Positions 6,089-28,784 of a stretch of DNA of 64,000 nt are shown here, in pieces (the stretch's first letter is position 1; the number at the start of each line of letters is the position of its first letter). This DNA is from Chloroflexota bacterium (GTDB taxonomy: Bacteria > Chloroflexota > Anaerolineae > Anaerolineales > Anaerolineaceae): assembly GCA_021779955.1 (NCBI GenBank), contig JAJXZS010000034.1:248001-312000 (forward strand), given 5' to 3'. The position numbers and the translations under genes are program-made. A model generated the notes under the pieces. That model was given only the letters and a program-made list of their open reading frames with translations, searched no databases and was not told the DNA's origin.

Positions 6089-6490
6089 TCAACCGGCAGA
6101 ATTCATTTGCACGAGATCCCAAAGGTTGCCGTAGAGGTCTTCGAAGACGGCAACCCATCCGTAAGGAGCGTGTTTCGGTTCGCGGATGAACCTGATGCCG
6201 TTCGAAATCATCTCGTTGTAGTCGCGCCAGAAGTCGTCAGTATTGAGGAAGAGAAAAACCCGACCGCCAGCCTGGTTGCCGATGAAAGGCTCCTGTTCGG
6301 GTTTGGATGCCCTGGCGAGAAGCAGCGTCGTGCCGCTCGATCCGGGCGGGGCAACAAGAACCCAGCGCTTGTCCTGTTCAGGCTGATAAGTGTCTTCGAC
6401 GAGAGTGAAGTGGAGCTTTTGGGTGTAGAAGGCGATGGCTTCGTCGTAATCCCGCACGACCAGAGCGATATGGAGGATGGTTTGTTGCAT
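6089..6490 (-). CDS. VOC (glyoxalase/bleomycin-resistance fold) family protein
   Basis: A 133-residue single-domain vicinal-oxygen-chelate protein. It begins LHIALVVRDYDEAIAFYTQKLHF, the first beta-alpha unit with the metal-ligand His at residue 7, and ends with AVFEDLYGNLWDLVQ, the last strand, where the usual metal-ligand Glu is replaced by Asp. The KRWVLVAPPGSSGTTLLLA segment fits the subgroup often annotated simply as VOC family. Members are lyases, dioxygenases or drug-binding proteins, and the role here is unknown. No tight operon link is visible. The start ATG is the first in frame. Confidence 0.88.
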   Translation of the reverse strand: MQQTILHIALVVRDYDEAIAFYTQKLHFTLVEDTYQPEQDKRWVLVAPPGSSGTTLLLARASKPEQEPFIGNQAGGRVFLFLNTDDFWRDYNEMISNGIRFIREPKHAPYGWVAVFEDLYGNLWDLVQMNSAG

Positions 6491-6529: not shown

Positions 6530-6973
6530 TCAGAGATGCGAATGCTCACGCCAATTGTACCCGCATGATGGGCAAAGCGCATTGTGCATACAGAGGAGCG
6601 ATCCACAGCTTGGGCACATCCATTTGCGGTTTTCGATCTCGACAAAGCTGTCGATTCCGGCGCGCTCGATGGCGATGAGGTTGTCGATGGGTTGGGTGTT
6701 GTATTTGGTGCGGTAGCGTTTATCCAGGCGTTTGATCAGGATGCAGGGGAAGTCGGCGCAGCCAACACAATAAGCGGATTTGGTAGCTCCCAGTTTTTCA
6801 CAGTTCTTGATGTGTCAATTCACGCATGATGGAGATTTATTGAAATCCGCTCCGCGGCAGCCAGGACAGGCGGCTATTCGCCGGATGAACGCGCGGCATA
6901 GACGGCAATCGATGCCGCAAGGCGCAATCAAGGCCGGAGAAGTCGGTTTGGGGAGGGCTTGGCTAGAATCCAC
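6530..6973 (-). pseudogene. DUF3795 family gene interrupted by an in-frame TGA (or candidate selenoprotein)
   Basis: Reading leftward from a GTG at 6973 (overlapping the end of the PPOX gene), one frame carries a complete Cys-rich DUF3795-type protein: APCGIDCRLCRAFI, then AACPGCRGADFNKSPSCVN, then TGA at 6817-6815 (codon 53), then HIKNCEKLGATKSAYCVGCA, then DFPCILIKRLDKRYRTKY, and a C-terminal zinc-ribbon-like MCPSCG...CPSCGYNW, ending at TGA 6530. As I recall the family, this place reads C-x-x-C-x-I-x-x-C, so the TGA sits where a Cys is expected. It is therefore either a Cys-to-stop mutation or a selenocysteine codon. I find no convincing SECIS-like hairpin just after it. DUF3795 proteins are thought to be small metal-binding proteins of unknown function. 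Confidence 0.7.
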
Positions 6974-7367
6974 GGAGCCTGGTTGGGTCGATGTGGATGG
7001 CTACAGTGTAGTCGGCGTGGAATTGCTCGGTGGTCATACCGAGGTCCTTGATGTCATCGGCATACTTCTTGGCATAGCCATGGTCGATGATTGGCGAGTG
7101 TGGTTCAAGTTTCGCATCGCCTGTGATGACGATCACATCGTCACCGCCACCCTCGAAGTTGATTGAAACCTTGGGGTGGACGGGAATATTGCGCAGTTTC
7201 AATGATTTGGCCTGGCTATAAATGAGTATCTCCTTGCCGTTCCAATAGAACCAGACCGGGTTGGGTTCAGGCGTGCCGCTGTGCGCCACGGTGGTGAGCC
7301 AGATCACCTTATCATGTTCGAGACGGTCAAGGACGTGGGCGCCGAAATCACCTTTGAATTCGATCAT
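6963..7367 (-). CDS. PPOX-class (F420- or FMN-dependent) oxidoreductase, TIGR03667-like
   Basis: 134 residues with the split-barrel pyridoxamine-oxidase fold: KVIWLTTVAHSGTPEPNPVWFYWNGKEILIYS is the cofactor-binding first half, SLKLRNIPVHPKVSINFEGG follows, and a short C-terminal TVAIHIDPTRLRGF strand ends it. The 'GTPEPNPVWFYW' pattern is that of the Rv3369-type group, which in actinobacteria uses deazaflavin F420; use of F420 here is inferred only. Start ATG 7367 has GGAG 6-7 nt upstream and an extended -10 promoter 35 nt upstream. The interrupted DUF3795 gene overlaps its last codons on the same strand. Confidence 0.88.
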   Translation of the reverse strand: MIEFKGDFGAHVLDRLEHDKVIWLTTVAHSGTPEPNPVWFYWNGKEILIYSQAKSLKLRNIPVHPKVSINFEGGGDDVIVITGDAKLEPHSPIIDHGYAKKYADDIKDLGMTTEQFHADYTVAIHIDPTRLRGF

Positions 7368-28044: not shown

Positions 28045-28784
28045 TCAATGATTCTTGACCGCCGTTTTAGGAGAATTGAAATCGTATTTGACGATCGAAT
28101 CGAAATGTCGGTCCATACAATAGAACAAGTCATGGTTTTGGGCATCAGAGGCGAGCGAAAGCTTGGTGGTCCAATCAGGCCCATCCTGTCTGGCGTCCGC
28201 GAGCATCTCAAAGGCTCGGTTGACGCTAAAGCGGCCGCCTTGCCGCGAGAGTGAATCTATGATCCTGGTATAACGGTCCGCGCCGCTGCCGGTTGGGTCG
28301 CGCGGAATGAGATCGCTGTAGTCTGACAGGGGGAAGTTGGTCATGGCAAGGAAAGGCGAATCGCTGCGCATGGGGAGGAGATTATTCTTCCGGGTTCGAT
28401 CACGAGACAGGTGCCCTGCGGATCGATGATGAAATTGTGGGTGCTGAAAAAAGGACTGTTCACGATCTCGACTCGCTGCAATAAGGCCTGAATATCATCG
28501 ATTCAGGCAGCGGATTCAAAAATGTACCTGACCACGGAGGTCGTCAGCCGGCGCTTCTGGTTCTGCCGTTAATATTTTGCCAAACCATCCGAATCGGCCG
28601 TAACGTCGTTGACAAAAACTCCGTTGGGATTCAGTCCGAAGGAAGGGTCGAAAACGCCACGGACTTTTACAGAGACCAAAAAATCGCGCCCACGACAGGA
28701 TGAGATCCTGAAATCCTTGCCGTCATTGTCGAAGTTCATACCGACGATGACATTTTCCTTGCGATGGGTAAAGCTTGCGCACAT
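28045..28784 (-). pseudogene. Linear amide C-N hydrolase (choloylglycine hydrolase-like) pseudogene
   Basis: From ATG 28784 the frame gives MCASFTHRKENVIVGMNFDN, with the Ntn nucleophile Cys2, then RDFLVSVKVRGVFDPSFGLN and NGVFVNDVTADSDGLAKY, then TAA at 28571-28569. The same frame continues RQNQKRRLTTSVVRYIFESAA, TGA at 28505-28503, then IDDIQALLQRVEIVNSPFFS and THNFIIDPQGTCLVIEPG. After a frameshift near 28370 the rest follows as MTNFPLSDYSDL...GSGADRYTRIIDSL...DGPDWTTKLSLASDAQNHDL. Every family block is present in order, with two nonsense codons and one frameshift, so the gene is dead. The family hydrolyses bile-salt-like or penicillin-like amides. Confidence 0.85.

Follow-up and report, generated by a model that had tools for sequence, protein, structure and literature searches.

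An in-frame TGA at a conserved cysteine position of a DUF3795 gene in a Chloroflexota genome carrying selenocysteine genes

The DUF3795 locus and its in-frame TGA

The stretch of DNA under analysis (64,000 nucleotides, referred to as the window) carries a DUF3795 frame that is interrupted by one TGA and lies between a PNPOx_N-like gene and a glyoxalase/VOC-like gene. The coordinates of the frame, its parts and its neighbours are collected in Table 1.

Table 1. Features at the DUF3795 locus, in window coordinates
Feature	Position	Strand	Remarks
Upstream neighbour, PNPOx_N-like gene	6963..7367	minus	11-base overlap with the GTG start of the DUF3795 frame
DUF3795 frame read through the TGA	6530..6973	minus	147 codons before the closing stop; first possible start GTG 6973
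ORF under translation table 11	6815..6973	minus	52 codons and TGA, with the first five conserved Cys
In-frame TGA	6815..6817	minus	codon 53; column is Cys in 80/80 best relatives
Open remainder of the frame	6530..6814	minus	last eight conserved Cys and zinc-ribbon-like C-terminal end
60 bases 3' of the TGA, expected SECIS region	6755..6814	minus	no model-fitting hairpin
Downstream neighbour, glyoxalase/VOC-like gene	6089..6490	minus	

The reverse complement of positions 6815-6817 is TGA, and the frame around it reads SCVN-U-HIKNCEKL. Apart from this codon, the 147-codon frame was free of stops down to its closing TGA (6532-6530), and candidate starts 5' of the interruption were located at codon 1 (GTG, 6973), codon 15 (TTG) and codon 51 (GTG). 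For the Pfam query of the read-through protein, C was entered for the TGA codon, and the gathering cut-off of DUF3795 (PF12675) was passed with 26.5 bits against 22.6. The initial annotation had proposed that a full DUF3795 protein continues on both sides of the TGA, and this description was borne out. The DNA pattern in its TGA form had a single match in the window and no match in any of 100 shuffles. The TGA at 6815-6817 is thus confirmed as present in the assembly, and the observation was right. A second DUF3795 copy was sought in the same genome at E 0.001 and none was found.

The structure of the DUF3795 protein was predicted confidently (mean pLDDT 90.6) as a Cys-rich model. The sequence search of the PDB returned two matches (best E 0.23) and the fold search 14 matches, none of them with E at or below 0.001, so that no solved relative was recognized by sequence or by fold. 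The plasmid search returned two records at about 30% identity.

Relatives at the TGA column

Relatives were compared in two sets. The near set comprised the best 80 of at least 529 confirmed relatives (from at least 584 pattern-matching stretches in genome_contigs; loci L075-L154), and the wider set comprised 67 further matches, many of them more distant. The closest relative among the matches listed was L075, from an Anaerolineales MAG, at 58%. At the column of codon 53, all 80 near relatives, every one from another species, have a normal Cys codon (TGC in 48, TGT in 32), which is the answer of the homologue comparison proposed earlier as a check for selenocysteine (Sec), and it speaks against Sec. 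In the wider set the column holds Cys in 42 relatives, Met, Val, Leu, Ile or Tyr in 24 and a gap in one. Cys at codon 53 is thus fixed in the near subfamily and not in all of DUF3795, and the residue is not indispensable in the family. The motif given in the initial annotation, C-x-x-C-x-I-x-x-C with TGA in place of the second Cys, accordingly holds for the near subfamily but not for DUF3795 at large (42/67). Met, Val or Leu occupies the column in a more distant subfamily that includes L013, L014 and L047 (Met or Val replacing Cys), and Leu was recorded for L074 in the larger alignment.

The rest of the window protein resembles its relatives closely. Of the 38 columns conserved in at least 90% of the best 80, it keeps 35, among them all 13 Cys columns other than that of codon 53; the departures are at residues 22, 53 and 94. 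Mean identity to 74 relatives was 0.463 before the TGA and 0.455 after it. The mean identity of the window protein to the others was the third lowest of 81, which may hint, weakly at best, at relaxed constraint.

TGA was found at the codon-53 column in none of the best 80 relatives and in none of the 67 wider ones. Genome_contigs was also scanned with an exact-spacing pattern of CxxU and the second Cys group, and 0 stretches were returned; the control recovered the window site, and the Cys form of the pattern matched 45 of the 80 loci L075-L154, so the scan reaches about half of the near relatives.

Only L131 (Dehalococcoidia MAG; 2076-2078) among the best 80 relatives has a stop that is truly interior: an in-frame TGA at a different conserved Cys, the second of a CxGC (CxGU). 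The genome of L131 encodes SelA and tRNA-Sec. Stops in L015 and L092 (TGA) and in L088 and L114 (TAA or TAG) lie at the C-terminal end and were set aside as not interior. L064 has both TGA and TAA in its last third, off the codon-53 column.

DUF3795 copies are also broken in ways that Sec does not explain. Frameshifts were seen in L056, L061 and L171, and the 3' part is lost in L025; these four are a lower limit, as they were spotted by eye among the 67 wider relatives. The TGA of L171 was considered as a Sec site and rejected, for it belongs to the frameshifted gene. Among all one-step nonsense changes possible in the window frame, 18-25% would give TGA on a conserved Cys, the range depending on transition bias, and the position of the TGA therefore favours Sec only about four to five and a half-fold.

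Selenocysteine genes and the SECIS hairpin test

The genome to which the window belongs (2.83 Mb, 56 contigs) was searched for the selenocysteine machinery. tRNA-Sec was detected with 73 bits against a cut-off of 47, and ARAGORN agreed at the locus (anticodon tca). SelA, SelB and SelD were all found. SelB (L034, C19:22236-24111) is interrupted by a run of N, across which the reading frame changes between its two parts. SelD (L042, C27:21117-22049) has a single TGA within its frame, at the motif CAGUASK. Judged from these genes, the genome appears to use selenocysteine. The gene check suggested in the initial annotation was thus answered in the affirmative, with a SelB interrupted by the N run, and the refutation of Sec by absent machinery does not apply. 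SelD was found in 113 of 147 genomes of the family (E 1e-60), SelA in four of four and tRNA-Sec in 11 of 12 tested genomes; being so common in the lineage, the machinery discriminates little. The formate dehydrogenase alpha subunit of the same genome (C3:37824-39899, L066) has no internal stop and is seemingly a non-Sec form.

The bacterial SECIS model, as given in a review (PMC13188914), places an apical loop of 3-9 nt with G in its first two positions on an upper stem of 4-16 bp, 16-37 nt from the UGA, with an MFE of at most -7.5 kcal/mol; according to the same review, not all putative SECIS elements of bacteria conform to it. This published geometry was recoded for the scan in place of bSECISearch, the program named in the initial annotation, and hairpin energies were computed alone. 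The SelD gene provided the only positive controls, 29 of the 30 TGA-bearing SelD loci being located by motif search (L230 was left out).

No hairpin of SECIS geometry was found after the window TGA, and none fits after the TGA of L131, whereas all 29 SelD UGAs located in the family are followed by one. In the SelD gene of the same genome, ggcgcag-GUG-cugcgcc stands 33 nt downstream of the UGA as a 7-bp stem with a GUG triloop (-11.3 kcal/mol). In 20 of the 29 SelD genes the best hairpin had a GUN triloop and lay at the same distance of 33 nt, and hairpin energy was at or below -7.5 kcal/mol in 19 of the 29. After the window TGA, a relaxed search (one mismatch, loops of up to 14 nt) gave +2.0 kcal/mol at best, and a 3-bp stem with the loop GAGCUA gave -2.0 kcal/mol.

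Hairpins of SECIS geometry were also found after 241 of 400 random TGAs of the window and at the matching place in 44 of 80 Cys-form relatives. Because the geometry is this permissive, failure counts against Sec and passing would mean little. The folding of the region 3' of the window TGA was no better than that of shuffles (z -0.35; -0.16 to 0.47 for other lengths of the folded region), and the SelD regions reached a mean z of -0.9, so that overall folding energy is no sharp test.

Readings of the TGA and comparison with known systems

The reading we prefer, with a probability of roughly 0.85, is that the DUF3795 gene is interrupted by one nonsense change of a Cys codon, whether this arose by recent mutation or is a wrong base in the assembly. 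The ancestral gene would have had a Cys codon at codon 53, and this codon would have become TGA by a recent real mutation or by a base or sequencing error; the ribosome would terminate at the TGA after 52 residues, and the resulting product would probably be no working protein. A change that is recent or not real would account for the conservation still visible in the remainder of the frame. The observations taken to favour this reading are the failed SECIS geometry, the unremarkable folding, the lack of TGA relatives, the Sec-independent breakage of other copies and the nonsense share of 18-25%; those taken to tell against it are the Sec machinery, the Sec-type SelD, the kept Cys columns, the even identity and the single DUF3795 copy. 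The non-universal Cys and the N-interrupted SelB leave the odds as before. The lineage-matched SECIS control from SelD, together with the lack of TGA relatives, makes termination much more likely.

The alternative that survives best, and one that we regard as improbable, is that selenocysteine is inserted at the TGA by SelB with a SECIS element outside the consensus model. The product would be a Cys-rich DUF3795 protein with a CxxU motif and a metal-binding or redox role. The suspicion was a reasonable one at the outset, for the TGA occupies a column where all of the best 80 relatives have Cys, and the genome holds Sec genes, including a Sec-type SelD. The frame 3' of the TGA is open and conserved, CxxU occurs often among the Sec motifs tabulated in the review (PMC13188914), and L131, whose genome encodes SelA and tRNA-Sec, has TGA at a different conserved Cys. 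Putative SECIS elements outside the model are known from the same review, and a DUF523 selenoprotein prediction is on record without TGA relatives elsewhere (PMC12013277). Against these points stand the lack of a fitting hairpin in the window gene and in L131 alike, set against 29/29 SelD controls; the lack of any TGA relative at the codon-53 column (0/80, 0/67 and 0 in the pattern scan); the wide occurrence of the Sec machinery in the lineage; and the other residues, Met and Val among them, at codon 53 in 24 of the 67 wider relatives. The initial annotation had held selenocysteine and plain mutation to be equally possible; both were rightly considered, and the balance has now moved towards mutation or base error.

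A broader form of the Sec reading, which we consider very unlikely, would make DUF3795 an undescribed selenoprotein family of the Sec-using bacteria of the lineage (probably Chloroflexota). The Cys position taken by Sec would then vary (CxGU in L131, CxxU in the window), and the SECIS element would be of a type unlike that of SelD in the same family. DUF3795 is absent from the table of the review (PMC13188914), in which 119 selenoprotein families and subfamilies are given.

It is highly doubtful that the 52-residue product is itself a functional protein: it would contain the first five conserved Cys and nothing was seen in its favour, and the conserved columns run on through the second half of the frame at an identity similar to that of the first. 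The reading of TGA as a sense codon (for Cys, Trp or another residue), whether through general recoding or through a suppressor tRNA, draws on the open frame and nothing beyond, and it was rejected as next to negligible because TGA closes 18 of the 44 long non-overlapping mechanical ORFs (at least 200 aa) of the window, in agreement with the earlier view that TGA is not generally recoded. Two further loci of the window, at 28503 and 53151, had been described as decayed with an in-frame TGA; the TGA is there in both, but TAA or TAG also occurs nearby in the same frame, and by eye they have the look of ordinary decay.

If the Sec reading were true after all, a Cys-rich family would join the selenoproteome and the SECIS model would be called into question. 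Under the preferred reading of an interrupted gene, the locus illustrates how a selenoprotein can be mimicked when TGA stands at a conserved Cys position and the genome uses Sec. It also illustrates the help that a lineage-matched control, here the Sec codon of SelD, gives in separating the mimic from the selenoprotein.

Among known systems, the window protein is like DUF3795 (PF12675) in its 13 other conserved Cys, His130, the DKRYR region and the C-terminal CPxC...CPxC, and the window gene differs from its relatives in having TGA for the sixth conserved Cys; residues other than Cys also occupy this position in 24 of the 67 wider relatives. With bacterial CxxU selenoproteins the gene shares the TGA/Cys pair, the CxxU context and a host with Sec machinery, but it lacks both a hairpin of SECIS geometry and a TGA relative at the column. 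The zinc-ribbon (seleno)protein DG (NF049953) is matched by the C-terminal ribbon only (6553-6660 of the minus strand, E 0.0035); the score of 17.3 bits is far under the cut-off of 130, and the match excludes the TGA site. The gene resembles nonsense-interrupted genes (pseudogenes) in that its frame is conserved apart from a single stop, and the only difference found from these is the Sec machinery in the genome of the window.
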